64,000 bases of DNA, from assembly GCA_021796215.1 (NCBI GenBank), contig JAJYOK010000008.1, positions 1-64,000 of the forward strand, given 5' to 3'. The DNA is from Bacteroidota bacterium (GTDB lineage Bacteria > Bacteroidota > Ignavibacteria > UBA10030 > UBA8401). This document shows positions 8,573-39,729 of this stretch, piece by piece (within the stretch, counting starts at the first letter, position 1; the number at the start of each line of letters is the position of its first letter). The translations under genes were made by a program, and so were the position numbers. The notes below the pieces were generated by a model that was given only the letters and a program-made list of their open reading frames with translations, searched no databases and had not been told where the DNA came from.

Positions 8573-9091
8573 ATGGACTCAATCGAAAATCTTTCCCGCG
8601 AAGAATTACTAACCCTTGTGAAGGTCTACGCAAAAAACTGGCTTGCCCATGACGGCTGTTGGTTTCTTGCCGCGGAAGAAGCGTTTGGAATGGACGCTGC
8701 AATCACTCTTGACACAAAATCGTGGGAGCGGTTTGCCGTTGCAGAAGCAAAAAGAATTATGAAGGAATTTAACATCTCACCCGAAAGCGGGCTAAAGGGA
8801 TTGGAGCGAGCGTTAAGTTTCAGGATGTATGCGGCGATCAACAAACAAGAAACAGAATGGATTGACGAAAAAACATTGATATTCCGCATGATTGAATGCC
8901 GCGTGCAGACGACCCGAATATCAAAAGGCTTAGCGCCATTTCCATGTAAATCGGTCGGTAATGTTGAATTCACTCAGTTCGCCCGAACAGTGAACCCGCA
9001 CATTAAAACTCAATGCCTCAGCTGTCCGCCCGATCCCGTAAAAGATTCTTACTGTTCATGGAAATTTACAATTGCTGAAGATGCGAAGTAA
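8573..9091 (+). CDS. Cysteine-rich cytosolic protein, DUF6125-like
   Basis: A 172-residue protein without signal peptide or membrane segment. The N-terminal half is helical (SREELLTLVKVYAKNWLAHDG). The C-terminal half carries C109, C125, C148, C151 and C161, arranged ECR, PCKSVG, QCLSCPPD, YCSWKF, which looks like a metal- or cluster-binding site or redox cysteines. The overall pattern recalls the DUF6125 / 2-aminothiazoline-carboxylate-hydrolase-like group, but I recognise it only loosely. It is divergent from the radical SAM gene and followed 44 bases later by the GH20 gene on the same strand. Function unknown. Confidence 0.65.
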   Translation: MDSIENLSREELLTLVKVYAKNWLAHDGCWFLAAEEAFGMDAAITLDTKSWERFAVAEAKRIMKEFNISPESGLKGLERALSFRMYAAINKQETEWIDEKTLIFRMIECRVQTTRISKGLAPFPCKSVGNVEFTQFARTVNPHIKTQCLSCPPDPVKDSYCSWKFTIAEDAK

Positions 9092-9135
9092 CCTTCTTCG
9101 TTTGCATCTCACGCGAGGTTTCCATAACTTTTCAT

Positions 9136-10665
9136 GTGATAAGTCCATCTTTGCTGACAGAAACACTCATCGAAAAACAAAAACTGAATTATTCCTTACG
9201 CGATATTATTCCTCTCCCCAAATCTGTTCTTTCCTCTGATGAAAAGGCATTCACATTAAAAGCCGGCGCGCACATCTCCGTCGAACCCCGAACGACGGAA
9301 ATGTTGAACCTCGGCGAGTATTTAGCAAATAAATTGAATGCCTCGACAGGGTATGGAATTCAGATTTTGCCGGAGACAGGCGCTCCGGCAAAAGGAAGCA
9401 TTCATCTCACAATCTCCGACTCCGACCCGACGTTAGGTGAGGAAGGATACCTTTTAACTATTTCGGAGAATCTCGTCTCTCTTTCTGCAAACAAACCTGC
9501 GGGAATATTCAGAGGTGTTCAATCAATTCGGCAATTACTGCCGCCGTTGATTGAAAGCACGGCAGTCCAAACCGGTCCGTGGCTAATACCGGCAGGCACA
9601 ATACGTGACATCCCGCGATTTTCCTGGCGCGGTGTGATGCTGGATGTTGCCCGACATTTTTTCAGTGTGAAAGATGTTGAACGATTCGTTGACCTGATGG
9701 CGTATTACAAGATGAATCGTTTTCATCTCCATCTTTCCGATGATCAAGGATGGAGACTGATGATCAATTCCTGGCCCAAGCTTGCAACGTACGGCGGAAA
9801 CACACAGGTTGGCGGCGGCCGCGGCGGTTATTATTCTCAGGAAGAATACGCGCACATTGTAAAGTATGCACAACGCCAATACATCACGGTGATTCCCGAG
9901 ATCGATATGCCCGGGCACACAAACGCGGCTCAGGCTTCGTATGCCGAGTTAAATTGCAATGGCGTCGCACCGTCACTGTATTCCGGCATTGATGTCGGTT
10001 TTAGCGCGCTATGTGTTGACAAGGAAATTACGTACACGTTTGTGAATGATGTCGTGAAGGAACTTGCCGCGCTCACTCCTGGTCCGTACATTCACGTCGG
10101 CGGCGATGAAGTTTCAACGTTGAGCGCTGCCGACTACAGCCGCTTCATTGAACGAGTGCAAGCCATTGTGCAATCGCACGGCAAACAAATGATCGGCTGG
10201 GCTGAAATTGCTCAAGCGCATCTTTCTTCTTCTTCCATTGCGCAACATTGGAAAGATAATTTCGCTCAACTCGCAGTACAGCAAAATGCAAAAGTAATCA
10301 TGTCTCCCGCAAATAAATTGTACATGGACATCAAATACAATGACTCAACACATCTCGGATTAATCTGGGCTGGATATATCGGGGTGAAAGATGCGTACGA
10401 ATGGGAACCGACAACAATCGTCAGCGGAGTCAGGGAGGACGATATCCTCGGAATCGAGGCGGCTCTTTGGTCTGAAACAATTCAAACAATGACTGATGCT
10501 GAATACATGGTTTTTCCGCGGCTTCCCGGTTATGCTGAAATTGGATGGTCTCAAGTAAAAGGCAGGACGTGGGAAGATTATGAAAGGCGCCTCAGCCGCC
10601 ACGGAGCGCGCCTCAAAGCGCTAGGTGTAAATTTTTATCCATCCTCAGAAGTTGCCTGGAAATGA
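9136..10665 (+). CDS. Beta-N-acetylhexosaminidase, GH20
   Basis: A 509-residue family 20 glycoside hydrolase that removes terminal beta-GlcNAc or GalNAc by substrate-assisted catalysis. An N-terminal GH20b-like domain (about 20-150) precedes the catalytic barrel. Family blocks are FHLHLSDDQGWR, IPEIDMPGHTNAA and HVGGDEV, where D324-E325 is the catalytic pair; GIEAALWSE comes later. The GTG at 9136 is the first usable start, because the frame is closed upstream and no ATG precedes it. There is no signal peptide, so the enzyme is predicted to be cytoplasmic, acting on imported oligosaccharides. It converges on the GH18 chitinase gene across a 35-base gap. Confidence 0.93.
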   Translation: MISPSLLTETLIEKQKLNYSLRDIIPLPKSVLSSDEKAFTLKAGAHISVEPRTTEMLNLGEYLANKLNASTGYGIQILPETGAPAKGSIHLTISDSDPTLGEEGYLLTISENLVSLSANKPAGIFRGVQSIRQLLPPLIESTAVQTGPWLIPAGTIRDIPRFSWRGVMLDVARHFFSVKDVERFVDLMAYYKMNRFHLHLSDDQGWRLMINSWPKLATYGGNTQVGGGRGGYYSQEEYAHIVKYAQRQYITVIPEIDMPGHTNAAQASYAELNCNGVAPSLYSGIDVGFSALCVDKEITYTFVNDVVKELAALTPGPYIHVGGDEVSTLSAADYSRFIERVQAIVQSHGKQMIGWAEIAQAHLSSSSIAQHWKDNFAQLAVQQNAKVIMSPANKLYMDIKYNDSTHLGLIWAGYIGVKDAYEWEPTTIVSGVREDDILGIEAALWSETIQTMTDAEYMVFPRLPGYAEIGWSQVKGRTWEDYERRLSRHGARLKALGVNFYPSSEVAWK

Positions 10666-10700
10666 TGCGATATCTTCTGTTCCTTTGCAGCCGCTTGTAA

Positions 10701-11918
10701 TTATTTCCGTTCTTTGCCGTTGAATTTTGTGTAGATCACGTTCAACAGCGGCGATTCACCGTTCGGCAAATAATCTCCCGTAATCTCCCAAATGCCAATG
10801 CCGTGAGCATTATTGTCAAGAACATATTGCGACTTCGCTCCTACCGATTCTTCGTCGTCATAAGAAATAAATTCATTCCATTCTGAGCTGATAAGATACG
10901 GCACTTTGGCGCGGTCATCCCAGTACCGCCTGAACTTATCCATTACTTTCACAACATCATTATAATCTGAACCGTGCAATGGAAAATGAACTGAGTCGGT
11001 TCCGTTGAATGATGCGTACGGCGCGGTGCATTGCATAAACGTATGCGCATAAAACGGAACGCCAATGTTGATCTTTGAAGCTGGAATATTGTACGTTTGA
11101 GTATACAGCTTGAATGCCGCATCAACGTTCCGAACGCTGTCGTCGGCACGGGGAGCATACAGCGGAGAATTGTACCCGCTCAACGAATCCCATGGGCCGC
11201 AGAAATCATATGTCATAACATTAAGCATGTTCAAAAAACCGGAAATTTTTTCTACCTCAAAACCTGCTGCCGTTTCAGCACCGGCTGGGAGTGCAGCGGT
11301 AAGCAGGAGTTTTCTACCTGTCAGTTTTTCCAACGCATCGAGACTGTCCCGTGTAATCTGCAAAAGTAATGTGCAATTGACTTTATCGTCCGGTGTTCCA
11401 TTGTGAGCAACATAGCATGGGAATTCCCAGTCAATATCTATTCCGTCGAAACCGAACTTTTTGATCTGTTCAACACACGAATGAGCGAATGCTTTTCTCG
11501 TTGGATCGCTCGATGCAACTTCCGGAAAATTGTATGAATCCGCCCACCCGCCGACTGACAGCAGCACTTTCACCCCGTGATGGTGTGCAAGATCGGTCAA
11601 TGCTGTACCCGATTTAAATGTTCCTGTTGTAGAATCGCGCTCTCCTTTAAGAATCATCTCGTCAGCAACCGAATCACGCCCGACGATTTCTCCGTCCGGC
11701 AAAGGATAGAAGAACGCATAATTAATCATCGTAAGCATGTTGTAAGGTATTTTCTCCGGCGTCATCGGATTGTCCATTGTTCTCCATTTCCATGAAGGAT
11801 AATAGCCGATGATTTCTTTTCTGCCATTAGCGTTATTTTCAATTTGCTGCCCGAGTGCCGGAATGTCTGCCAAAATTAACATTGCCAAACAAAAAAAGAC
11901 GATTACGTTTTTCATCAT
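10701..11918 (-). CDS. Secreted chitinase-like glycoside hydrolase, GH18
   Basis: A 405-residue GH18 enzyme. The N-terminus (KNVIVFFCLAMLILADIPALG) is a signal peptide. The catalytic DxxDxDxE motif reads D158-G-I-D161-I-D163-W-E165, with E165 the acid. GYYPSWKW near the start, LLSVGGW and NVMTYDFCG are further barrel strands typical of chitinases. It has no carbohydrate-binding module and no T9SS tail, so it may stay periplasmic or be outer-membrane-associated. AGGAGG lies just upstream; the second of two adjacent ATGs (11915) is better spaced. It follows the AmpG-like permease gene by 37 bases and belongs to the putative chitin/GlcNAc locus. Confidence 0.92.
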   Translation of the reverse strand: MMKNVIVFFCLAMLILADIPALGQQIENNANGRKEIIGYYPSWKWRTMDNPMTPEKIPYNMLTMINYAFFYPLPDGEIVGRDSVADEMILKGERDSTTGTFKSGTALTDLAHHHGVKVLLSVGGWADSYNFPEVASSDPTRKAFAHSCVEQIKKFGFDGIDIDWEFPCYVAHNGTPDDKVNCTLLLQITRDSLDALEKLTGRKLLLTAALPAGAETAAGFEVEKISGFLNMLNVMTYDFCGPWDSLSGYNSPLYAPRADDSVRNVDAAFKLYTQTYNIPASKINIGVPFYAHTFMQCTAPYASFNGTDSVHFPLHGSDYNDVVKVMDKFRRYWDDRAKVPYLISSEWNEFISYDDEESVGAKSQYVLDNNAHGIGIWEITGDYLPNGESPLLNVIYTKFNGKERK

Positions 11919-11955
11919 GCCTCCTGAGATAACACATCTTTAGGATTTCTGAATA

Positions 11956-13275
11956 CTAAGTCGTCAGAACTGCCGCTCCGGAACCGCCGGATTCTATGTC
12001 GTCATTGGCGTCATCTTCGATTTTCCGGAACGGAACCAACCATGTTATTAGAAATGACGGCACCGTTGCAATCATTACCCAAATGAAAAAATGTTTATAA
12101 CCAAGATAATCGCTGATCACGCCGCTGATCATCGAAGGGAGCAAATACCCTATTTGCATGAGCGATGTTGCAAATGCATAGTGTGCCATTTTATATTTTC
12201 CGGGCGCGATTTGCTGCATCATAAAGAGCATCAATCCAACAAAGCCAAAACCGTAGCCGAAATATTCAAACACCACAAGGATCGTAATGGTAAAAAAACT
12301 CGTCGGCTGAAAAATCGCCAAGATCACATATACGGCGAAAGGAATGTTGAAAAAAGCGCACAACACCAGCAACGCTTTCCGAAGCCCTCTGTTTGCCGTG
12401 AAGTAGCCGGATAAAACAGAGCCCACGATAAACGCCAGCGGCGGAAAGATACCATAGAGCACGCCTACATCTTCTGTCGAAAGCCCAAGCCCGCCAATGT
12501 CCCGTCCGGCACGCATAAAGAGCGGTACAATTTTGATTGCCTGCCCTTCAGCAAAGCGATAGAAAACAAGAAACAAAATTGCCCACACAATATATTTCTT
12601 CTGAAAAAATGTAACAACGACGTCCCAAAATGTTGTGACGGTTTCTTTGATCGTTTTCACTTCGCCTGATTTTCCACCTGTCGGTAGAAAACGCCAATGA
12701 TAAATGCTCATCAACAGCAAGATTACACCGAACGAAGCCATCACAATTGTCCATGCGGATACAACGCCAATACTTTTCTCCATGCGTCCGGCTAAATACA
12801 CAAACGCGCCTTGCGACAAAACTTTCCCGACATTGTAAAACGCTCCCTGCCACCCGACAAATTCCGCTTGTTCTTTATTTGATAACACATTGATATATAC
12901 ACCGTCGGCGGCGGTATCATGAATTGCTGAATTGATTGCAATAATGCCGAACAGAATAAGCGTCCACGTAAAGAACGACGGAAGATGAAGTGAAAGCGCA
13001 AGTAACCCAAAACTGATGCCGCCCAAAAACTGCGTTGCTAGAACAAAATACTTTTTCGTCTTGAACATCTCGAGCAGGGGTCCCCAGAGAGGTTTCAGCG
13101 CCCATGGAATAGCAACGAGGCTGGTAAAAAAAGCAATTTCGGAATCGCTCTTGCCCAAGCTTCGATACATCAACACAGCAACTACATTAACAATAACAAA
13201 AGGTAAGCCTTCGGCAGTGTACAGCGTTGGCACCCAAAACGCAGGGCTGGTGGGTTTTGAAGCTTTAACGGCCAT
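11956..13275 (-). CDS. AmpG-like MFS permease
   Basis: An inner-membrane permease of 439 residues with about 12 hydrophobic segments. The N-terminal block (TLYTAEGLPFVIVNVVAV, then AIPWALKPLWGPLLE) and HDTAADGVYINVL match the AmpG/acetyl-CoA-transporter-like branch of the major facilitator superfamily, whose bacterial members import GlcNAc-anhydromuropeptides. Next to GH18 and GH20 genes it is a good candidate for bringing GlcNAc or chitobiose into the cytoplasm. The start is placed at MAVKASKP because AAAGGA lies 8 bases upstream; a longer form from 13302 has no such site. Substrate is inferred from context. Confidence 0.85.
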   Translation of the reverse strand: MAVKASKPTSPAFWVPTLYTAEGLPFVIVNVVAVLMYRSLGKSDSEIAFFTSLVAIPWALKPLWGPLLEMFKTKKYFVLATQFLGGISFGLLALSLHLPSFFTWTLILFGIIAINSAIHDTAADGVYINVLSNKEQAEFVGWQGAFYNVGKVLSQGAFVYLAGRMEKSIGVVSAWTIVMASFGVILLLMSIYHWRFLPTGGKSGEVKTIKETVTTFWDVVVTFFQKKYIVWAILFLVFYRFAEGQAIKIVPLFMRAGRDIGGLGLSTEDVGVLYGIFPPLAFIVGSVLSGYFTANRGLRKALLVLCAFFNIPFAVYVILAIFQPTSFFTITILVVFEYFGYGFGFVGLMLFMMQQIAPGKYKMAHYAFATSLMQIGYLLPSMISGVISDYLGYKHFFIWVMIATVPSFLITWLVPFRKIEDDANDDIESGGSGAAVLTT

Positions 13276-13390
13276 GAAAGAATCCTTTTCTCGAATAATC
13301 ACAGGAATGAATTCAGTGTCACATGCATCGCACGTTACGGCGTTGCATCAATCTACATATTTTTTTAACGAAGTAAAATCGTGCACTTAC

Positions 13391-13428
13391 AAAAACGTCC
13401 CGTCACGGCGCTGAACGTAACGGGGCGT
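13391..13428 (-). terminator. Rho-independent terminator after beta-helix protein gene
   Basis: On the minus strand a 13-pair stem with minor mismatches (ACGCCCCGTTACG, 8-base loop, CGTGACGGGACGT) runs directly into TTTTTG. It lies about 60 bases after the beta-helix gene stop and separates it from the AmpG-like permease gene. A second inverted repeat (GATGCAGG/CCTGCATC, 13442-13470) sits just before it. Confidence 0.8.
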
Positions 13429-13486
13429 GGTGGAGAAACACGATGCAGGCCTTTGATAGCATCCTGCATCTCAGCAACATTGATAA

Positions 13487-15235
13487 TTATTTCAGCAAAA
13501 TCATTTTTTGTGTGATAGCTCGGGCACCTTGCTCGAGTCTATAAAAATACACGCCGCTGTTAAATTTATCCATGTTCACATTGAAATCATAGCTTTGATG
13601 CGCCAGCGCGTTGCCTTCGAATACCGTCATCACCAGCTGTCCAAGCGTGTTGTACACTTTCAGGCTTGCCGGTGCATTCCGATCAACCGTGAAGCTAATC
13701 TCTGTTGACGGATTAAACGGGTTGGGATAGTTGTTGCTCAGTTCGAATTTTTCCGGAACGGAAGCCGGCAATTGTTTGACGGCGGTCGGTGTATGGGTGA
13801 ACCAATATGGATCGCCATATACTTTTCCATCGGATGCTGTGAGTGATGCGGAATATTTTAGATCATCCGATGTTTCTTCCGGAAGAGGCCATGTCGGCTT
13901 CCAGTTGCCGCTAGAATAATCAGGTATTGCCATTTTATAACCCCAAAAATCGGTAGCAACGCCTGCGGCTCTGAACTGCTGTAGCCAAGGAATGAATCCA
14001 ATACCATCGTCTGAAGGAACTGTTGTGCCCGATGCACCAAGCATTGTCGTAATTCCTGCACCGAATCCGGGATCAACATTTTGATTGCCGTTCTGATGGA
14101 AATTCGAATGATTCCCGAACATGGTTGCAGTGTAATCGTTCATCCAATCGGTCTCGTAAATCCATGTATAATGAGTGCTCGCAGTATCGGCATTCCATGT
14201 TGTTATCGCATCAGTTATAGATTGTGGTTTAAAATAAACATTATCGTTAATTTCGATAATTCTTGCCGCTTCAGCCGTTGTTACCCAATTTGCCTGCGTT
14301 GTATCAATGCCAAAACCGCCTGCAATTTCTTTGCTCAGCGTATCAAGATCAATAACAGAGCCGACGCCCGGAGCCCAAATACGATCCCACCATGGGTATT
14401 CACCGTTTCCCATTCCGCCAGCGAATGCAGCATAAAAAATATTGTGCTGGCATACCCAGTTCGTTGCATTCATATTAAAGAATGGATTCTTAAACGTGGC
14501 AACAACGGTGTTATGTTCAAAATCAAAATACCGCATATAGGATGTTACACCAACTGCTGCCACATATCCATTCAAGCCCAGGAATGTATTATACTTCATA
14601 GAAATCGTATCGGTGGGGAAATGGCCGAGATCGTTTCTGAACCTGAGTGCCTCTCCGGTGTAATCACTTCCGGGATTTACAAAATTTCTGAATTTGCAAT
14701 TTGTAATCCAAAAACTATCCCAGTTGCCCGAATAGTCAATGCCGAACTGACTCCATTGTTCAAACACGACATTATCAATATAGCATTTGATACTGTCGCC
14801 GGTCACCGTTATTCCAAACCCATCACCTGAATTTATTGTGTTGTTTACCGAGATACCGATAAGGTAAAGGTTTTTGATTTTCACAATTGAGCCGGACTTG
14901 GTGAATGTAAACAAATGTCCCGGTATGGATGCATCAGAAAGCACGTCCGGCTGGATGCACGGGGGCCTTCCGTTGGAACCTGATTTACCAATAAATGTGA
15001 CGCTGTTATCCACTGCCACGGTTGCATCGAACGTATATGGCGTATCAACAGAAACGAGTTGATACACAAGGTGTGGGGTGCCGCTTGCTTGATCTTGTGC
15101 TACAACTTTATCAAGCGTATTGGCTATTGGTGTTGCATACACAACAAGCGTATCATTCGCGGCAAACGAATGGTTCGGCATAATAAGCAACATCATCAGT
15201 GCAACGAAAAGAGTTGCGTAGAGAAAGCGTTTCAT
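13487..15235 (-). CDS. Secreted parallel beta-helix protein with T9SS sorting domain
   Basis: A 582-residue exported protein. MKRFLYATLFVALMMLLIMP... is a signal peptide. Residues about 60-300 read as stacked strands with repeating asparagine and aromatic turns (IVKIKNLYLIGISV, CYIDNVVFEQWSQFG, FWITNCKFRNF), characteristic of right-handed parallel beta-helix proteins such as pectate-lyase-like folds. The last 75 residues form a type A T9SS tail: NNYPNPFNPSTEISF, LKVYNTLGQLV, GVYFYRLE and a basic end. It is therefore exported to the surface or medium. An AAGGAG site lies 7 bases before ATG. Its place between the TonB receptor and the permease suggests a glycan-binding or glycan-cleaving role; no catalytic residues are assigned. 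Confidence 0.85.
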   Translation of the reverse strand: MKRFLYATLFVALMMLLIMPNHSFAANDTLVVYATPIANTLDKVVAQDQASGTPHLVYQLVSVDTPYTFDATVAVDNSVTFIGKSGSNGRPPCIQPDVLSDASIPGHLFTFTKSGSIVKIKNLYLIGISVNNTINSGDGFGITVTGDSIKCYIDNVVFEQWSQFGIDYSGNWDSFWITNCKFRNFVNPGSDYTGEALRFRNDLGHFPTDTISMKYNTFLGLNGYVAAVGVTSYMRYFDFEHNTVVATFKNPFFNMNATNWVCQHNIFYAAFAGGMGNGEYPWWDRIWAPGVGSVIDLDTLSKEIAGGFGIDTTQANWVTTAEAARIIEINDNVYFKPQSITDAITTWNADTASTHYTWIYETDWMNDYTATMFGNHSNFHQNGNQNVDPGFGAGITTMLGASGTTVPSDDGIGFIPWLQQFRAAGVATDFWGYKMAIPDYSSGNWKPTWPLPEETSDDLKYSASLTASDGKVYGDPYWFTHTPTAVKQLPASVPEKFELSNNYPNPFNPSTEISFTVDRNAPASLKVYNTLGQLVMTVFEGNALAHQSYDFNVNMDKFNSGVYFYRLEQGARAITQKMILLK

Positions 15236-15445
15236 CTTAACTCTCCTTCTTTATATTAGGATTGTGTTGATTGTCCGTTTTTGCTTGTTTTATTTTATCG
15301 AAAACGGTTTTACTCCTACAACTTTTTCCCATCTGCCTTTTATTGTAAAACCTCCTTTCCTAGGCATTGAACCGAATTGAAATATGTACCAAGGTTTAAT
15401 TAATTCGTTACTACGCTCTTTGTGTTCTTCTATCAAAGAATTTGA

Positions 15446-18370
15446 TCACAATTGATAACGAAGCCCTAATTCCATTGTATACTTATAATTCTGCTGTTGT
15501 GACGGCACACCGGTTGGTGCGGCAATGACGCTGACGTCGTTGGCGCCGGAAAAATTATCCAAACTGTAGAATACTTGAAGTCCTTCTATTGGCAGTTTCT
15601 GCCTGAGAGCAATATCCCAGCGGTGATATGCTGAAGTGTACGTTCGCAACTGAGGCCAGAAATTTGGTCCGGTAAATATTTTGTCCGAAAAGATAGATGA
15701 CACACGAATCGAGAATCCTTCGTAATCATATCCGATGGAAAAATTCAGAATATTGTCCGGTTGATAGAGAAGCGGGGCGTAATAGCTTGAATCAACATAT
15801 CTGTTCGGGCGGGTATAGTTAAAGGTGATCGGGTATTTTGCTTTTGAAAAGATATGCGTGTAGTTTATGTTTGCTACTAATCCGTTAAAGGGCGGCGGCA
15901 AATACCAAAAATGTGTTTGCCAATCAAGCTCCATTCCGTAATCATCTATTCTGTATGGATTGTTGATGTACGTTGTAACGGCAATTCCGGCGGAAGTCGG
16001 CGGTGCGGACCAGGATGGATAATACTTTGCCAGTTCCGCTACTGTGGGAGGCGTAAATTGATATTGGTATATCAGATTGGAAATTTGTTTCAGAAATGCG
16101 CCCGCGGTAAACAATCCGATACTATTGTCATAAAAAGAAAAATATGCATCGTAATTTTTCGACCGTATTGGATTTAAATTAAATCCGTTCCACTGAAGCG
16201 TGCCCGCGCTCTGTGCTACAGTAATTATTGGTGCTAATGATGAATAATCCGGATACGATACCGTGTTGGAGTACGCAAGGCGCACATCAAACCATTCTAA
16301 AGGTTTGTACCGTACCGACACATCAGGAAGCCAGTAGGGGTGATATGTGGCAATTGTCACCACGCGGTTATTGTATCCATCGTACGGATTAGGTCCCTGC
16401 AATCCTTGAGCGGCAGTATAAACTGTTTTAAGTTGTTGATAACGAACACCGGGGATGACAGTGAGCGAATTCCCAACATTGATGGTTGCCATTACATAGG
16501 CGGCACCAATATCTTCCGTTCCTGAATAATCACTTCTCGTTGAGTTCCCCAAATCATAATTATAGCTGATATTTTGAGGAAGCTGATGTGCATTCATAAA
16601 ATTCACTATTGTGTGCAAGCGAGAAAAATCCTGCGGTAAAGCCATCATATAGTTCCCGTCGAGAAATTTTCCATAATTAAAATTTGGATCAATAAAAATT
16701 GACATCGGCGCAGTATTGGGATTTCCAGACGCCGATTGAAACCAGGGGAAGGCTTCCTTTAATTGATTGATAATTGCTCCTCCGCTGGCGTAAAGAAAAG
16801 CCTCGCCATCAATTGCATTCAAATCGTACGATCTTGTTTGGTGTCTGTATTTCCCGCCAAACTTTACTACGGAGGAAAACATATCCGATATATTGATTGG
16901 AAAATCGAAGTCTAGGGCGGCGGTTAAATTTCGTTCTCTTGTAAAGCTGCTGGTTGATGAGACCGTGCTCAAAAATGTGTTCGACAAACTATCATTGGCG
17001 GCATTAGCGACGGTCTGAGGATTTAAATTCGCTTTATTAAAAAACTGGCCGAGATTAGCGCCGTTATTTATAAACGTGAATACCCAGTCGTTCGGGTCTT
17101 TTGTTTCGGAATATGAATGAGAAAGTGTTACATTGGCGTGCATAAACGAAACCTGCTGTTCATAGTCGAACACGTTTGTAATCATATTCAACGTGCTTTT
17201 GGTGTATTGCGGCACGAAACTTTGGTTGGATGCGGTCCCAATTGTGTATAGTTCCTGACGGTCTTCCGTTTCTGTTGTGCCGGCACTGAAGAAATTTGAG
17301 AGGGATATCTTGCCGTTGGGAAATTTATAATCCAGTCCGATAACCCCATTCTTCCGCTGTCTGTCCCGCGCTATGTCATCTGTTCTAATATTTTGAGTGA
17401 GATAGTCTACAAAGGAATTACCCTGAGAAAGATAGGAAGCTCCCAATTCATTGGAAGAAAGGTTTCGTCTCTCTAAGGATGCTTGGAAAAGAACACCTAA
17501 TTGACTTTCAAAAAAACGATTTTCAATTCCTACGACGTACTTGTAATTGTTGAACTTGCGATAGGCATCGGGTAAACCAATGTATGATCCTTGGGCAAGA
17601 AGATTAATTTTGAATACTCGATTTTCTTCCGTCGTTTGCGCCTGCCGCAGCGTGAAGTTTACTGAACCGCCTAAGACATCTGCATCTTGATCGGCAGTTG
17701 CAGTTTTTGAAACTTCAATTCCGTTTAGCATATCAGAGGAAATCATGCTCAAATCTGTACTTCGGTCGCCGGAATTTGATGAAGCTATTTTTACCCCATC
17801 AATTAAAATTTCATTGTACTTCGGGGCTAACCCGCGTATCACAACTTGCGCACCTTCACCGCCCGTTCTTAAAAGCGAAATTCCGGGAAGCCTTGCTACA
17901 GATTCAGAGGCGTTTGCATCGGGCAATTCCTGAATCCTTGCCGCAGAAACAACATTTTTTATCTGCATTGCTGAAAGCTGTTGGTTAATTGCCGCGTTTT
18001 GTCCTTCTGCTTGAGCGGTCACGACAACAGCTTCTCCCTGAACCCCGATTGCTTCCAATTTAAAATTCTGTCTCGCGTCAACGCCTTCCTGAATTTTGAT
18101 ATTCATCTCCATGCTTTTGTAACCGATATAGGTGGCACGAATGGTGTACGATCCTGCAGGTACATTTTTGACTATATACTTCCCGTTGATATCGGTTGAC
18201 GCCCCCAAACTGGTCCCCGTAAGAAACACCGTAGCGCCGGGAAGCGGCTCACCGGTTTGAGCATCTTTTACATATCCTTCCAGATTAGAACTTACTACTG
18301 CTGCGAGGGAACCGGAATAAACCGCACAGAGAATTGTGATGCTTGAAACAACCATAAACCTTCTATACAT
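15446..18370 (-). CDS. TonB-dependent receptor, Xanthomonas/Caulobacter type
   Basis: An outer-membrane active transporter of 974 residues. After the signal peptide (MYRRFMVVSSITILCAVYSG) comes a carboxypeptidase-regulatory-like domain (LEGYVKDAQTGEPLPGATVF ...), then EAVVVTAQ as a TonB-box-like stretch, then the plug with RLPGISLLRTGGEG, VVIRGLAPKYNEILIDG and TATADQDADVLGGSVNF, and finally the barrel ending in LGLRYQL. The plug blocks resemble the TonB-Xanth-Caul family, some of whose members import chitin oligosaccharides or GlcNAc. The start is moved 23 codons inside the longest frame, to the ATG with AAAGGAG 8 bases upstream. No SusD-like partner follows. Confidence 0.9.
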   Translation of the reverse strand: MYRRFMVVSSITILCAVYSGSLAAVVSSNLEGYVKDAQTGEPLPGATVFLTGTSLGASTDINGKYIVKNVPAGSYTIRATYIGYKSMEMNIKIQEGVDARQNFKLEAIGVQGEAVVVTAQAEGQNAAINQQLSAMQIKNVVSAARIQELPDANASESVARLPGISLLRTGGEGAQVVIRGLAPKYNEILIDGVKIASSNSGDRSTDLSMISSDMLNGIEVSKTATADQDADVLGGSVNFTLRQAQTTEENRVFKINLLAQGSYIGLPDAYRKFNNYKYVVGIENRFFESQLGVLFQASLERRNLSSNELGASYLSQGNSFVDYLTQNIRTDDIARDRQRKNGVIGLDYKFPNGKISLSNFFSAGTTETEDRQELYTIGTASNQSFVPQYTKSTLNMITNVFDYEQQVSFMHANVTLSHSYSETKDPNDWVFTFINNGANLGQFFNKANLNPQTVANAANDSLSNTFLSTVSSTSSFTRERNLTAALDFDFPINISDMFSSVVKFGGKYRHQTRSYDLNAIDGEAFLYASGGAIINQLKEAFPWFQSASGNPNTAPMSIFIDPNFNYGKFLDGNYMMALPQDFSRLHTIVNFMNAHQLPQNISYNYDLGNSTRSDYSGTEDIGAAYVMATINVGNSLTVIPGVRYQQLKTVYTAAQGLQGPNPYDGYNNRVVTIATYHPYWLPDVSVRYKPLEWFDVRLAYSNTVSYPDYSSLAPIITVAQSAGTLQWNGFNLNPIRSKNYDAYFSFYDNSIGLFTAGAFLKQISNLIYQYQFTPPTVAELAKYYPSWSAPPTSAGIAVTTYINNPYRIDDYGMELDWQTHFWYLPPPFNGLVANINYTHIFSKAKYPITFNYTRPNRYVDSSYYAPLLYQPDNILNFSIGYDYEGFSIRVSSIFSDKIFTGPNFWPQLRTYTSAYHRWDIALRQKLPIEGLQVFYSLDNFSGANDVSVIAAPTGVPSQQQNYKYTMELGLRYQL

Positions 18371-18454
18371 TTTTTTCTCCTTTGGTAATTGATTCCAATG
18401 GAAAATTTTTTTCTTCATTCTTTGTATTTGCTCAGTCATAAAGACTATAAGAAG

Positions 18455-19426
18455 TTATTCAGCACTTATTGGTTCATTAATATCTATCACTGAGCTCGCG
18501 CCAAGAATCGCTGCTTCGCCATCGCTGAACTGGGAAGGGAAAACTGCAATTTTCCCCCGCAGTGAGCTGAGCACATTCTCGTTGAAAGATTTCAGTGTTG
18601 GCTTGAATAAAAACTCTCCGGCATGCACTAATCCTCCCGACAGGATGATTGCTTCCGGGTCAAACGAGACAACGGTACTCGCCAGCATCTTCCCGAAAAT
18701 TTCGCCTGTTACTTCAAAAGTTTTGCGTGCCAGAATGTCTCCCTCGATTGCAAGATCATAGAGTACTTTCGCGGTCAAGTTACTGTACGTTCGCTCGCGC
18801 AGCTTTGATGCATCAAGCTCGCTTGACATAAGCTCAAATGCTGTTCTGCACATACCTGTTGCCGAGACGTATGTCTCTACACAGCCTCTTCGTTTGCACC
18901 CGCACTTTCTGCCGTTCGGTTCAACAATAATATGACCCAGTTCACCGGCAAACCCGTTCGCTCCGTTAACCAGTTCGCCGTTCATCACAACGCCTGCACC
19001 TAAGCCTGTCCCTAATGTGATGGCGACAAAATTTTTCATGCCCCGCGCTAATCCGTACTTCATTTCACCAAGAGCTACGGCGTTACTATCATTGATAACG
19101 GTAATCGGAAGGTCGTACTGCTGTTTCAGCAAATCAGCAATATTGATTGTTCCCCACAATAAATTTGCAGGGTTTTGAATGAGTCCTGCTCGATGTTGTG
19201 CCGCAGGTGCTGCGATACCAATTCCAACTGGATGCACTTCATGTGTATCAATCATGCAGATTTCACGAACTGAGCGGGCAAGCTTAGAGATGAATTCTTC
19301 TATGCTTTTGTTCGCAGATGTGGAAAAGTTTATTTTCTTAATACACCTGCCGTTAGTATCCACAAGGCCAAGCGATGTATTGGTGCCGCCGATATCAATG
19401 CCGATTTTATATTCCAAGTCTTTCAA
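18455..19426 (-). CDS. ROK-family sugar kinase (glucokinase or GlcNAc kinase)
   Basis: A 323-residue ROK kinase that phosphorylates a hexose or N-acetylhexosamine with ATP. Visible features: phosphate-1 motif DIGGTN (11-16), catalytic aspartate D113 in INDSNAVALGE, phosphate-2 loop LGTGLGAG (138-145), GELGHI (161-166) and the zinc site CGCKRRGC with C175, C177, C182. The start codon is TTG, with GAGG six bases upstream. It follows the ROK repressor by 12 bases and is surely co-transcribed. Neighbouring GH18 and GH20 genes make GlcNAc the favoured substrate; glucose cannot be excluded. Confidence 0.88.
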   Translation of the reverse strand: MKDLEYKIGIDIGGTNTSLGLVDTNGRCIKKINFSTSANKSIEEFISKLARSVREICMIDTHEVHPVGIGIAAPAAQHRAGLIQNPANLLWGTINIADLLKQQYDLPITVINDSNAVALGEMKYGLARGMKNFVAITLGTGLGAGVVMNGELVNGANGFAGELGHIIVEPNGRKCGCKRRGCVETYVSATGMCRTAFELMSSELDASKLRERTYSNLTAKVLYDLAIEGDILARKTFEVTGEIFGKMLASTVVSFDPEAIILSGGLVHAGEFLFKPTLKSFNENVLSSLRGKIAVFPSQFSDGEAAILGASSVIDINEPISAE

Positions 19427-19438
19427 TGTCTGCCTCTT

Positions 19439-20662
19439 TCAAAGAGCGATACGATAGTCAGTAAATATTTTTCGAATAGACAACGCCGCAGCACCGAGCA
19501 GCGGCGGATTACCGGTTAAAGATGTCGGAAGTATAGCTGTGTTCCGCTGCTTTCCGAAAAAACCTCTTTTATTAACTGTCTCCATGATTTCCGGGTAAAT
19601 CAATTCCCATGCTTGTATAATCGTTCCCCCGATGATGATTACTTCTGGATCAAATGAACGGATGATGTTGGCAATGCCCAAGCCGATATATTGCGCGGAT
19701 TTTGTAAGCGCTTCTTTTGCCACATCGTCGCCATGCGCAGCCAATCCAATGATACTTTCTAATGATGTGTTTGCAGTTTGCTCCTGAGATAATTTTTTTT
19801 CTGCTGCATAACGACGAATCGTAGCGCGGTCCGACGCATACACTTCCCAGCACCCTTGATTGCCGCACGTGCACCGTTCTCCTCCTTCCACAATTGTCAT
19901 GTGGCCGAATTCCCCCGCTGCATGTGAACCACCGCTGAGAATATGGTTATCAACCACAATCCCCGCGCCGATACCGGCGCCTACAGAAAGAAAAACAACA
20001 TTCGTCGGATTAACTTTATGGGTTCCCAAAAGAAGTTCAGCCAAAGCGGAAGCTTTCGCATCATTTTCCACTGTCACCATTTCGATGGCTGGCGCGTAAT
20101 CACGAACGACTTGTCCCAAATCCAAATCCTGCCAACCCAAATTCGGCGCGTAGACAACTTTCGATTGCGCCGCATCAACGATTCCCGCAACCGTAACCCC
20201 GATGCCTCTGAAATGATGCGGATGAAATTGCCCCCTCATGACATTCAATTTTTTAATGCATAGGGAAACAAACTCTGAAGGGTTTCCGATTTCCGTTTTT
20301 ATCTCCGCACTGCTGATAATGGTGCCGTCCATATCTATAACGGCGAGTTCTGTCTTTGAAGAATCAAAATAAATTGCGCCAACATAATGTTTTCCTCTTT
20401 TCACACGCAGGTTGATTGGACTTCGACCAATTCCCCTCGGACTGTGATCTGGCTCCTCAATGATAAGGTCTTCAGCAATGAGACTCGCAACAATGCTTGA
20501 GACGGTACTCTTGTTAAGCTTCGTCAAGTCAGAAATCTTTGCCCGTGAAATAGGCTGTCGTTCGCGAATAGAGTTCAAGATAATTGCCCGGTTAATGTTC
20601 CGCGCTACCTTTGCGTTGATACTGAGAATATTACCGTGTCTTGTCTTCTTTGTGAGAGGCAT
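19439..20662 (-). CDS. ROK-family transcriptional repressor (NagC/XylR-like)
   Basis: A 407-residue regulator with an N-terminal winged helix-turn-helix (about 21-70; PISRAKISDLTKLNKSTVSS) fused to a ROK sugar-sensing domain (about 90-395) containing LSVGAGIGAGIV, GEFGHMTI and the zinc site CTCGNQGCWE. Family members such as NagC and XylR release DNA on binding their sugar or sugar phosphate. It heads the glycan locus and is followed by a ROK kinase. Two palindromic sites and a sigma70-like promoter lie directly upstream, so autoregulation is likely. No clear ribosome binding site precedes the ATG. Confidence 0.92.
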   Translation of the reverse strand: MPLTKKTRHGNILSINAKVARNINRAIILNSIRERQPISRAKISDLTKLNKSTVSSIVASLIAEDLIIEEPDHSPRGIGRSPINLRVKRGKHYVGAIYFDSSKTELAVIDMDGTIISSAEIKTEIGNPSEFVSLCIKKLNVMRGQFHPHHFRGIGVTVAGIVDAAQSKVVYAPNLGWQDLDLGQVVRDYAPAIEMVTVENDAKASALAELLLGTHKVNPTNVVFLSVGAGIGAGIVVDNHILSGGSHAAGEFGHMTIVEGGERCTCGNQGCWEVYASDRATIRRYAAEKKLSQEQTANTSLESIIGLAAHGDDVAKEALTKSAQYIGLGIANIIRSFDPEVIIIGGTIIQAWELIYPEIMETVNKRGFFGKQRNTAILPTSLTGNPPLLGAAALSIRKIFTDYRIAL

Positions 20663-20676
20663 ACATAAATTTCAAA

Positions 20677-20697
20677 TTTGTTGGTTGCTACAACTTA
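20677..20697. promoter_or_regulatory. Candidate ROK operator 1, leader of the repressor gene
   Basis: TTTGTTG, seven bases, CAACTTA: an imperfect 21-base dyad 15 bases before the repressor ATG. It shares half-site, spacing and orientation with operator 2, so it is probably a second binding site acting as a roadblock or loop partner. A lone TTTGTTG half-site lies between the two at 20724-20730. Confidence 0.55.
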
Positions 20698-20759
20698 TTA
20701 AATATTTAAACAGCTTGAATACTTTTGTTGCCTGAATATTATGCAGAAATAAAGAAATG

Positions 20760-20780
20760 TTTGTTGTTTCAACCAACAAA
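20760..20780. promoter_or_regulatory. Candidate ROK operator 2, at the transcription start
   Basis: TTTGTTG, seven bases, CAACAAA: a perfect 7+7 dyad of 21 bases. It begins 2 bases downstream of the predicted -10 box of the repressor promoter, so bound protein would cover the transcription start. Size and AT-rich half-sites fit ROK-family operators; binding itself is inferred. Confidence 0.65.
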
Positions 20781-20782
20781 TG

Positions 20783-20811
20783 AGTTTAATAAATTTTCGT
20801 TAACTTGTCAA
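20783..20811 (-). promoter_or_regulatory. Predicted promoter of the ROK repressor operon
   Basis: On the minus strand, TTGACA (20811-20806) is a perfect -35 box, followed after exactly 17 bases by TAAACT (20788-20783), four of six matches to TATAAT. The start would fall near 20776, inside operator 2, leaving a leader of about 115 bases that contains operator 1. Confidence 0.6.
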
Positions 20812-21293: not shown

Positions 21294-21367
21294 GCGCCGA
21301 TAGCTCAACTGGATAGAGCATCAGCCTACGAAGCTGAGGGTTGGGGGTTCGACTCCCTCTCGGCGCA
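21294..21367 (+). tRNA. tRNA-Arg (anticodon ACG)
   Basis: A complete 74-base cloverleaf. The acceptor stem GCGCCGA pairs with TCGGCGC, the D arm contains AGCTCAACTGGATAGAGC, the anticodon stem CAGCC/GGCTG-like arm presents ACG in the loop CTACGAA, and the T arm carries GGTTCGACTCC. The discriminator is A and the CCA end is not encoded. ACG is the precursor of the inosine anticodon ICG, made by TadA, whose gene lies 640 bases downstream. Confidence 0.96.
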
Positions 21368-21389
21368 CTAAAACATCAAAAAAATACTC

Positions 21390-32709: not shown

Positions 32710-35700
32710 TTAATAGTGATCCAGGAATTGCTGTTCCGGAATAATTGCCAGCTTCAATGTTTTTGTCTGACCGATGTCCGGCAGGTCTATATATGCAACA
32801 TACATACCTGCTGCAACGGGCAATTGATACTCGTTCAAGAGATCCCAATCCTGATACTCAGAAGCGTCATTCTTTTGCAATGTTCGAACAAGAATGCCCG
32901 CCAAATTGTAAATACGGATTATTGCCTTCTGCGGCAAATGTGTAAACCTGACAAACCGAGTATATTTATCTCTCTCAAGTTTGTTAAACCCAAAGTATGG
33001 GTTCGGGAAAACATTGATTTTGCTGACATCCTGCTTAGCCACCGCTGCCGAGTATTGCGCCTTGGGGACTGTATAAGAAAATTTATCTATCCCAATTTGG
33101 AGCGGTTTGTTATAAAGAATCTTGATATCATCGCCTGTAGTGAAAGCAGACGCCATAAATACCCAATTCCACGTTCCACTGTCTTTTACAGCTGTAGCGG
33201 TCGGACTTATGACAGAAGTAACGTATTTAGTGTTTACTACCCACACGTACATTCTATCTCTTGTATTCCACACTTGAAATCCGTCCTTTATGCCGTTTGC
33301 GTCTCCATTTGTTTTACCGGCATTACGATCATAGACCAGAAGGTTTACCTGCTCATGTTTATCTATGTTCCACACCTCGAAAGGAATCCTTACTGTGAAA
33401 GGGGCAGTAGTGCCTGGTGCCGGATTGAGCGGATGATTTTTGATAGAGTAGTTACTGGCACCAAAAATAGTCGCTATGGAGCCGCCGGACTTTGTTATTA
33501 CAACGGTTTTACCATTTATTGTGGTATCACCAGTTACGCCTGTCCATTTGAGCTCATAACCTTGTTGCAGGTCATTGATATCTGTTAGCGGTACACCTGT
33601 TGTCCCACCGTAAAGCGGCAAGGTGGTAGTTACGCTCGCATCACCATAACCAAACAATGTAAAATCAGTTATGTCATAGCCACCGCTGACGTACTCATTT
33701 TGAGAAGCACCGGAGCCGGCACGTCTTAATTTTGTGCCATTCAGATAAAGCTTACCAATTGTGACAGGGGCATCAAAACTGCCGTTCACCTCAACTGTCA
33801 TGCCGTCAAAGAGAGCGGGGCTTAATCCTACGTTATAGCTATTGGTTCCGGTTGAACCGCCGGGACCGTATAATCCGGTAGCTTTATAATAAGTGCTTTG
33901 GTCATAAATGTCGGCACCACCGTAAATTGTTTGGTTTTTAATTGCAAGTTTCCCGGTTGTTACATCTTTAACATCCCATTGATGTTGAGTCACCATATTC
34001 TTGGCAACCTGCGTTAACGTATCGATGCCCGACACATCAATAAGACCGCCATAATAACCATTATTATCGCCCCAATTGTCATCAAACATCTTATAATTGG
34101 TTATTATTGGTATGCTACCAGAAACTAATAGCACTATATCTTCGCCGCCTGCAAAAACACCATTTTGGCTTCGATTAGTTGTATCGCCATTTACTAAAGA
34201 GTCTAAGCTAATTTCACCATAAAACAAAGTATTTGTGGACCTATCCAATGTAACCGGAATAGGATTACCTGTATTGTTACTGATCGGTTCATAAGCAGTA
34301 TCAATAGTAACACCTGCAGGCAATTTTATTTGAACTCCATCGCAGTAATCATAGTTAGGCGATTGAACATCTACCAAATAGTGAATCTCAAAATGACCTG
34401 GTGTCTCGCTCCATAAACCTGCAGAGGTCAATGATGAACCGGTCAAATCAGCAGTTTTGCCTAACCTTTTGCTCTTGCTAAGCGCGGTTTGGTCAACCCA
34501 CTTTCCATCAGAGCCAAGCGTATATACTTCGTTGTGGAAGTATACCTGATATTGATGACCGGTTACAGAGAACGGGTCAACAACTGTCACATTAGTGCTC
34601 GCATCTGCGATTCCTGTGTGCGTAACATTTGAAAATGACCCTTCATCTGGAGCGGTGTAACCAGCCGGCAACGACTGCGCACGAACATCCAGGATGTTGC
34701 CTGCTATAGGGCTTTCAAGATTATTCGGCTCGACACCCGTTCCATTATAGCTGTATGCGGTTACCGCAAAATAGTAGTCACGGTCATTCACAATTGGCGT
34801 GTTTGTCAACGCATCTTGAGCGATGGTAAGAGAATGAGTCAACCCCGAGTGGGTTCCGTATTGGACCGGCTCCATTACAATGTATCCCGTTATCGGGTCA
34901 AAGGCAAGATCCTGAATTATACCTTGGCTTGTTGTCAAGTCGTATGTGTAAAGACGCTTGGCGCCAGTCGAAGAATTTGAAGGTAATTGCCAGACATTGT
35001 AACCCTGAAAATCATAGCCCTTTGAAGTAAAGTGCTCGATCTCATAGGGTTTATGTGGTGATGCTACAGTCGAATCACCCCATGTAAGCACTATCTTACC
35101 ATTTAGCTGAACTACTTTTACTTGCGGTGACGGTGGCGAAGACGGAAGATCAAAGAGATAATTATAAGCAGTCTGCGCTATATCATCGTAATATTTCAAG
35201 AATGACACACTCGACAAATAATCACTCCCTTGAGCCGCCACTGCGGCTACCACAACTTGCTGTGTGTCTCCTGGCGCCATCGTAAAATATCCTGAGTTAA
35301 GGCACATTCGAACGTCGGCCGGCGGGGAAACTCTTGCTTTGCCAATATACGTTGGCCCATTTCCCGTGACAGGATCACCGGGGTAGCAATACGGCGTGCC
35401 GTTTGTAACCGATTCAGGAAAAGGTGCGCCTGTTGTGCTTATCAACCCTTTCATGAGGTTATACCACTGTCGTGTACCGTCTGCATCGTTTAATGGCGGA
35501 TCCGTGAAAGTTGAGTTACCATTGATAAAAAATGAGAAGGACGTCATCGGCAAATTTTTCTTGCCTGGCACATATTTCATATCAAAGATAGCGGTATCAG
35601 TCACTGCTCCGGGCACAATAGCGCCCTGAAAGAAATCGTAGCCGACCGCAGGGGGTGCTAGTCCTAAATTGGCATAATTCGCATCTCTCGCAACACCATT

Positions 35701-36687
35701 ATATACAAATCCAAGGCTCTTGTTTACATCGCAACCAACAGCATCATCTCCAGCATAGCCAAGGTCTGCATCGGCCCATTGAGATACGTACACTGTATCC
35801 AATGGCACACCGCTTTTGTTAACAAATTTGTAGCTTGTAAAAATAGTGTTCCCTAAAGCTCCCGGCCGGTTATATGCCCAGATTGTTCGCTGCACTTCAA
35901 TGCCCATCGGATTAGACCCATACAAACTTAATGTCAGCGTCTGGTTCAAATCATTCATGACCATCCATTCGGTTTGGTCGGAGCCGGGAAAACCGGGAGT
36001 ACATGTAGCTGCATTGTAACCACTGCCGCCGCTAATATGAGCGACGCCATTGGCATCTGTGAATGGAGCGCCTTCGCTTGCGGGCCATTGATTCCAATCA
36101 TCCCAGTATTGCTGCAAAAGCTGTTCTGCGGTGTAACTTTCAAAACGTTCAATGTAAGTCACTTCATTTGATAGAGCGGCTAATTCGCTGGCCGCTTTGG
36201 GATCGTCCGGATTCGTCACCCCGGCTATTGGCTTCATGTCGGGACGGACACGATACACTCTGTTAGCAGGCGCGTCGGGATCGTCCGCCGTAGGCAAGGT
36301 TCCTGCCGTTCCGTTTGTGAGTATCCTGCCGGGCTGCAGTCCGTGGTTATAAGTTGAACCGCCTGCATAAAGAGTATCGTTCTTGTATGCTGTCCAGACA
36401 AGACCGTCTTCAAAAATTGCGGTCCCGTCATTAGAGCCGATTGGGAATTCAAACCCTTCATTACTCGTTGAAAACTTATTGAAGGATCCGTCACCGTTAT
36501 TTGAATAGTAATTGAAAATATTATTGATGTCCATGGGCCTGTAAGAATTAGTTGTCTGCACCTTGGACAATCTTTGTGTGTTACCGCTTTTCTCCGCCGA
36601 GCCTTTGGCTTGCACCGGAGGCGCTGCAGCCAAAGCAAGGAGAAGAAGGGCAGCGATAACGCCGTTAAGAAATTCTTTACGAATCAT
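32710..36687 (-). CDS. Giant secreted surface protein with T9SS-like C-terminus
   Basis: A 1325-residue exported protein. The signal peptide is MIRKEFLNGVIAALLLLALAAAPPVQA. A fibronectin-like module lies at about 515-640 (VKVVQLNGKIVLTWGDS ... YEIEHFTSKGYDFQGYNVW). Low-charge, Gly/Thr/Asn-rich beta structure fills the remainder. The last 95 residues (INVFPNPYFGFNK, IIRIYNLAGILVRTL, YVAYIDLPDIGQTKTLKLAIIPE) form an FlgD-like/T9SS type A tail. AGGAGG lies 8 bases before the chosen ATG. No enzyme motif is seen. It sits between the TonB receptor (28-base gap) and the PorV-family gene (66-base gap), so it is likely the cargo or surface partner of both. Confidence 0.82.
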   Translation of the reverse strand: MIRKEFLNGVIAALLLLALAAAPPVQAKGSAEKSGNTQRLSKVQTTNSYRPMDINNIFNYYSNNGDGSFNKFSTSNEGFEFPIGSNDGTAIFEDGLVWTAYKNDTLYAGGSTYNHGLQPGRILTNGTAGTLPTADDPDAPANRVYRVRPDMKPIAGVTNPDDPKAASELAALSNEVTYIERFESYTAEQLLQQYWDDWNQWPASEGAPFTDANGVAHISGGSGYNAATCTPGFPGSDQTEWMVMNDLNQTLTLSLYGSNPMGIEVQRTIWAYNRPGALGNTIFTSYKFVNKSGVPLDTVYVSQWADADLGYAGDDAVGCDVNKSLGFVYNGVARDANYANLGLAPPAVGYDFFQGAIVPGAVTDTAIFDMKYVPGKKNLPMTSFSFFINGNSTFTDPPLNDADGTRQWYNLMKGLISTTGAPFPESVTNGTPYCYPGDPVTGNGPTYIGKARVSPPADVRMCLNSGYFTMAPGDTQQVVVAAVAAQGSDYLSSVSFLKYYDDIAQTAYNYLFDLPSSPPSPQVKVVQLNGKIVLTWGDSTVASPHKPYEIEHFTSKGYDFQGYNVWQLPSNSSTGAKRLYTYDLTTSQGIIQDLAFDPITGYIVMEPVQYGTHSGLTHSLTIAQDALTNTPIVNDRDYYFAVTAYSYNGTGVEPNNLESPIAGNILDVRAQSLPAGYTAPDEGSFSNVTHTGIADASTNVTVVDPFSVTGHQYQVYFHNEVYTLGSDGKWVDQTALSKSKRLGKTADLTGSSLTSAGLWSETPGHFEIHYLVDVQSPNYDYCDGVQIKLPAGVTIDTAYEPISNNTGNPIPVTLDRSTNTLFYGEISLDSLVNGDTTNRSQNGVFAGGEDIVLLVSGSIPIITNYKMFDDNWGDNNGYYGGLIDVSGIDTLTQVAKNMVTQHQWDVKDVTTGKLAIKNQTIYGGADIYDQSTYYKATGLYGPGGSTGTNSYNVGLSPALFDGMTVEVNGSFDAPVTIGKLYLNGTKLRRAGSGASQNEYVSGGYDITDFTLFGYGDASVTTTLPLYGGTTGVPLTDINDLQQGYELKWTGVTGDTTINGKTVVITKSGGSIATIFGASNYSIKNHPLNPAPGTTAPFTVRIPFEVWNIDKHEQVNLLVYDRNAGKTNGDANGIKDGFQVWNTRDRMYVWVVNTKYVTSVISPTATAVKDSGTWNWVFMASAFTTGDDIKILYNKPLQIGIDKFSYTVPKAQYSAAVAKQDVSKINVFPNPYFGFNKLERDKYTRFVRFTHLPQKAIIRIYNLAGILVRTLQKNDASEYQDWDLLNEYQLPVAAGMYVAYIDLPDIGQTKTLKLAIIPEQQFLDHY

Positions 36688-36715
36688 AAAGTGTTCCTCC
36701 TGGGTTTTCGTTTTC

Positions 36716-39640: not shown

Positions 39641-39729
39641 GTTTTGTCTCCTTGTTATTGTTCTTGTGGACAATTGTTGATCTGCGCTCCGTACAAAACT
39701 ACACACATGATCAGTTAATTAAATACAAT

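Follow-up and report, generated by a model that had tools for sequence, protein, structure and literature searches.

A TonB-Xanth-Caul receptor and a type IX-exported beta-helix protein form a recurrent pair in a probable chitin uptake operon of an Ignavibacteria bacterium

A 64,000-nucleotide stretch of a Bacteroidota genome from the class Ignavibacteria (contig JAJYOK010000008.1, positions 1 to 64,000; the window herein) encodes a probable chitin uptake operon in which the gene for a TonB-Xanth-Caul receptor is followed by the gene for a protein with a type IX secretion system (T9SS) sorting domain. Judged from its sequence, the T9SS protein is a member of a family that has not been catalogued, named BODY1 herein, which almost always accompanies TonB-Xanth-Caul receptors in many families of the phylum. 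By analogy with SusD and SusC, the most likely role of BODY1 is to capture glycan for its receptor; we infer both contact between the two proteins and glycan binding by BODY1. The joint reading, a dedicated chitin/chito-oligosaccharide uptake operon in which BODY1 has this role, is considered fairly probable.

The operon lies on the minus strand and is transcribed in the order ROK repressor, ROK kinase, TonB receptor, T9SS protein, AmpG-like permease, and glycoside hydrolase family 18 (GH18) enzyme. A GH20 gene, preceded by a gene for a DUF6125 protein, occupies the opposite strand and converges on the six-gene operon. Pfam and NCBIfam profiles and the sequence recovered all seven genes named in the original prediction within the limits it gave, six of them co-directional as described. 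That prediction had also proposed a TonB-Xanth-Caul-like receptor plug with no SusD gene behind it, and both points hold. The receptor scores 343.7 bits against TIGR01782 (cut-off 310), spanning 2–867 of 868, and 66 bits against the SusC/RagA model TIGR04056 (cut-off 368), the latter over its N-terminal part only, which places it among TonB-Xanth-Caul receptors and outside SusC. It is the sole receptor in the genome above the TIGR01782 cut-off. The SusD models PF07980 and PF14322 have no match anywhere in the genome, no SusD model fits the gene after the receptor, and profile comparison found no similarity between BODY1 and SusD. With no SusD gene adjoining the receptor, the locus is not a polysaccharide utilization locus of the SusCD type.

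The T9SS protein had been flagged as a beta-helix protein of unknown role and a possible new component, and the profile searches bear this out. The 582-residue protein matches no Pfam family above cut-off except at its tail, a sequence search found no solved relative, and a scan of viral sequences gave no match. Its full-length relatives adjoin TonB-Xanth-Caul receptors. For receptors drawn from 60 relatives with the TIGR01782 score as the sole criterion, neighboring genes were surveyed; locus numbers here and below count sequences, not independent events. Under simple gene calling, the next same-strand gene carries a T9SS tail for 47 of 60 receptors, compared with 15 of 544 background genes. 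A six-frame profile search located BODY1 within 1.5 kb downstream of 54 of the 62 receptors in the order. Once tails were removed, 48 partners of the order formed one single-linkage family, and the 27 control loci, which have other TonB receptors, all lack BODY1. When genome contigs were scanned with a profile of the T9SS alignment, most of the signal came from the tail motif; clear full-length body relatives number three (L176, L177, and L179), and the pair occurs in three named-record loci (Ignavibacteriae, Caldithrix, and a Bacteroidetes metagenome-assembled genome). A body-only profile applied across the phylum detected BODY1 in 53 of 395 genomes and 36 of 170 genera, and outside the order it lies beside a TonB-Xanth-Caul receptor at 38 of 39 loci, with the gene order reversed in three. 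The receptor profile behind the 54/62 and 38/39 counts was trained on paired receptors, which influences receptor recognition, not adjacency. The receptor tree mirrors that of BODY1 (r = 0.94, 48 pairs), same-genome paralogs give the same correlation (r = 0.94), and 5,000 within-genome shuffles of paralog partners reached a maximum r of 0.745.

Other arrangements were seen during the survey. The two top TIGR01782 scorers in the order (L061 and L062) are receptors without a BODY1 partner. BODY1 lies upstream of the receptor at L316, L318, and L320, with a receptor-like gene of 225–247 residues between them, and receptor-paired BODY1 proteins of 866–892 residues, about 300 above the usual length, are encoded at L303, L306, L307, L308, and L322. 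A second and distinct T9SS-tailed family, BODY2 (motif WGGIIILG, no Pfam family beyond the tail), is directly downstream of an intermediate TonB receptor class at 13 of 13 loci (L163–L175) and absent from the 27 control loci. Many control receptors are followed by genes of 940–1300 residues, some with weak T9SS tails. The window itself has another TonB receptor (36716–39706, minus strand), followed by a 1338-residue protein with no Pfam or NCBIfam match (region 32710–39706).

Export of BODY1 is indicated by both ends of the protein. The window member scores 44 bits against the T9SS type A sorting domain TIGR04183 (cut-off 23), identifying it as T9SS cargo, and the genome encodes PorU (1004 bits), so type IX secretion is available. 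The tail is detectable in 47 of 53 BODY1 members of the order, and the remaining six look truncated or frame-broken. Complete BODY1 proteins outside the order have a signal peptide, judged by eye throughout, and a T9SS-type end, although the profile misses or underscores the tail in two. BODY1 is therefore expected outside the outer membrane. An AlphaFold2 (AF2) model of the whole protein was poor (predicted local distance difference test [pLDDT] 47); for the body alone, the mean pLDDT was 54 and the predicted template modelling score was 0.67, with pLDDT mostly 66–86 over residues 31–160. The best VIA-align match of the body model is to residues 424–747 of the polysaccharide lyase family 6 (PL6) enzyme 7dmk (Z 22.8, 3.5 Å, 284 residues), which suggests, with moderate confidence, a right-handed parallel beta-helix. 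The Pfam Beta_helix model matches 24 of 45 BODY1 members. DUF5123 (PF17161) has no match in this genome, the window protein included, and 4 of 45 relatives match it weakly (E value no better than 2e-4), leaving BODY1 outside that family.

Genes downstream of receptor-BODY1 pairs encode GH18, GH94, GH88, GH42, GH2, GH10, GH28, GH43, GH26, GH130, uronate isomerase, and sugar permeases. Judged from these enzymes, the partner loci appear to serve chemically different glycans (chitin, xylan, mannan, and pectin-type), and the conservation of one protein across such varied substrates is easier to reconcile with a capture or lid role than with a single catalytic activity. Several observations weigh against that role. 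BODY1 is missing for seven receptors of the order (an eighth exception is at a contig edge), so a receptor of this class can function on its own. The agreement between trees marks a stable unit, not contact, and co-inheritance of the locus also yields mirror trees. The AF2 body model was based on four sequences. Asp209 and His241 are invariant throughout the family, and many lyases and glycosidases have a parallel beta-helix.

An enzymatic role is accordingly the strongest alternative, albeit an unlikely one: BODY1 would be a beta-helix enzyme at the cell surface, a lyase or glycosidase, supplying the receptor with cut polymer. The top structural matches of the model are beta-helix lyases and glycosidases, and the two invariant residues would suit a catalyst, yet lyases need uronic acids, whereas the partner loci, judged from their enzymes, serve chitin, xylan, mannan, and pectin-type glycans. 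The best PL6 matches also cover residues 424–756 of those chains, which we take to be the non-catalytic C-terminal helix, and no Pfam enzyme family matched the window protein. Less likely still, BODY1 could be a secreted accessory, either an adhesin or a free glycan-binding protein, sharing its expression with the receptor but never in contact with it. T9SS cargo may be released or anchored to surface glycolipid, and shared inheritance alone would account for the tree agreement, but adjacency is near-universal in both directions while every other neighbor changes, and a free binder needs no single fixed receptor class. Capture of glycan for the receptor remains the preferred reading.

The substrate class follows from the enzymes. 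The GH18 resembles chitinases (5gzu, 308 bits) more than it does endo-beta-N-acetylglucosaminidases. Operons of relatives in other genera have a GH94 in place of the GH20, present in five relative loci at 71%–82% identity; among solved structures it matches chitobiose phosphorylase 1v7v best (1172 bits; next 542), which fixes the substrate class. Among the sampled loci, GH20 is limited to the window and a sister species. Neither this GH20 nor its ortholog has a visible Sec signal at the N-terminus, so the enzyme is probably cytosolic. Chitobiose would then enter the cytosol whole, probably through the AmpG-like permease, and be cleaved inside the cell, hydrolytically here and by phosphorolysis in most relatives. 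The ROK kinase probably phosphorylates N-acetylglucosamine (GlcNAc), a candidate specificity only, as every NCBIfam cut-off was missed (80 bits against the ROK N-acetylglucosamine kinase model NF009835, cut-off 380; 208 bits against glucokinase TIGR00744, cut-off 260). It is very improbable that the locus instead salvages GlcNAc from peptidoglycan or host N-glycans, since the permease, despite resembling the muropeptide transporter AmpG, is under the cut-off for that family (113 bits against TIGR00901, cut-off 350), the GH18 is nearer to chitinases, and relatives have chitobiose phosphorylase.

The original prediction reported nagA and nagB missing. Both are absent from the window but encoded elsewhere in the genome, nagA at G000:C10:58873-60012 and nagB at G000:C37:77436-78080 (TIGR00502, 425 bits). 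Its assignment of the locus to chitin/GlcNAc is upheld by these genes together with the chitinase matches of the GH18 and the chitobiose phosphorylase of relatives, and the complete import-and-phosphorylate route that it had drawn gains a firmer basis from the presence of nagA and nagB in the genome and of the phosphorylase in the relatives' operon. A NagB-like gene adjoins the receptor-BODY1 pair in relative L113. A glucosamine isomerase family match on contig C18 was rejected as NagB because it is a 6-phosphogluconolactonase. In the chitin-type loci of relatives L064, L073, and L087, BODY1 and the permease are separated by an additional GH18-like protein that the window locus does not encode; at least the L064 and L087 versions have a T9SS tail.

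The operon begins at a promoter with two operators (Table 1), and the originally predicted locus ends exactly where the -35 box starts, at 20811. Perfect operator matches number two in the 3.37 Mb genome, both at this promoter; looser matches are no commoner than those of a reversed-pattern control. The arrangement of promoter and operators recurs, with variation, in six further species. Because the two operators are unique in the genome and their arrangement recurs in relatives, the ROK repressor most likely controls its own operon. With 185 bits over its full length against NagC model NF047937 (cut-off 650), it is classed by profile as a ROK repressor of a group other than NagC. An operator was searched for upstream of GH20 and not found, and a one-mismatch copy on contig C5 was set aside as it appears to lie inside a coding region. 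A tRNA-Arg (ACG) gene is located just upstream of the operon promoter (window 21294–21368, plus strand).

Table 1. Features of the chitin locus, with positions in the window
Feature	Position	Strand	Evidence
-35 box TTGACA of the operon promoter	20806..20811	-	Sequence; conserved in most aligned relatives
-10 box TAAACT, 17-base spacer	20783..20788	-	Sequence
Operator 1, TTTGTTGGTTGAAACAAC, directly after the -10 box	20763..20780	-	Perfect match; aligned in relatives
Operator 2, TTTGTTGGTTGCTACAAC, directly before the repressor start codon, reverse copy	20677..20694	+	Perfect match; aligned in most relatives
ROK repressor, winged helix and ROK domain	19439..20662	-	PF00480 195 bits; HTH_27
ROK sugar kinase, probable GlcNAc kinase	18455..19426	-	PF00480 207 bits; no equivalog cut-off reached
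TonB-Xanth-Caul receptor	15446..18439	-	TIGR01782 343.7 bits, cut-off 310
BODY1, T9SS-exported protein with predicted beta-helix, constant receptor partner	13487..15235	-	TIGR04183 44 bits, cut-off 23; pairing; fold
AmpG-like major facilitator superfamily (MFS) permease, probable chitobiose importer	11956..13302	-	MFS_1; TIGR00901 113 bits, under cut-off
GH18 chitinase, signal peptide, without T9SS tail, motif DGIDIDWE	10701..11918	-	PF00704 234 bits; chitinase 5gzu 308 bits
GH20 beta-N-acetylhexosaminidase, no visible signal peptide	9136..10665	+	PF00728 309 bits; hexosaminidase 1hp4 533 bits
DUF6125 protein, upstream of GH20	8573..9091	+	PF19620 228 bits; kept with GH20 in sister species (L071)

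A working model can be proposed from these features. The ROK repressor would close the promoter through the two operators until sugar, the presumed inducer, arrives. BODY1, exported by T9SS, would catch chito-oligosaccharides at the cell surface and pass them to the TonB-Xanth-Caul receptor, which would pump them into the periplasm; BODY1 would thus do for this receptor what SusD does for SusC, though unrelated to SusD and delivered by another secretion system. The GH18 could trim the oligosaccharides, and the AmpG-like permease could import chitobiose. A cytosolic-type GH20 would split it, where relatives use chitobiose phosphorylase, and the ROK kinase would yield GlcNAc-6-phosphate, with NagA and NagB, encoded elsewhere, completing the route.

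Glycan uptake in Bacteroidota is commonly inferred from SusC/SusD pairs, and genomes without SusD are easily assumed to have no such loci. A SusD-free pair recognizable by sequence would allow polysaccharide loci to be called in little-cultured groups and would make testable the idea of a T9SS-delivered beta-helix as the lid of a TonB transporter. We lean slightly toward the view that the pair represents a further TonB glycan-uptake architecture beyond SusC/SusD and partnerless receptors, in which a TonB-Xanth-Caul receptor and a dedicated T9SS-delivered beta-helix capture protein serve many glycans in several classes of the phylum.

TonB-Xanth-Caul receptors for GlcNAc and chitin are found in proteobacteria, including Caulobacter, Xanthomonas, and Shewanella. 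They share with the window locus the family TIGR01782, linkage to GlcNAc catabolism genes, and the lack of SusD. We know of no T9SS partner for them, whereas the receptor here has an N-terminal carboxypeptidase-regulatory domain and a near-constant partner. BODY1 itself has remote homology to DUF4957/DUF5123 proteins of Bacteroidia (213 columns, probability 97.7 in profile comparison). In the members examined, the N-termini are of lipoprotein type and an fn3 domain is present, whereas BODY1 combines a plain signal peptide with a T9SS tail. No description of a receptor/T9SS pair was found in the open-licence literature, including work on SusD-free loci and TonB-Xanth-Caul receptors. The M. roseus genome is described, in the part of the report considered here, as having one SusCDE set and Por-tailed enzymes, with no receptor/T9SS pair named (PMC3534657). 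In the chitin locus of Flavobacterium johnsoniae, ChiUL, two SusC/D-like pairs are accompanied by ChiA, a chitinase secreted through T9SS (PMC5127042). ChiUL resembles the window locus in having a TonB receptor gene beside a surface-protein gene, chitinases, sugar-dependent regulation, and T9SS within the system, through ChiA. The receptor here is not a SusC, SusD is absent, and the partner is a T9SS-exported protein with a predicted beta-helix, in contrast to the tetratricopeptide fold of SusD. Regulation also differs, with a ROK repressor in the window locus and a two-component system in ChiUL.

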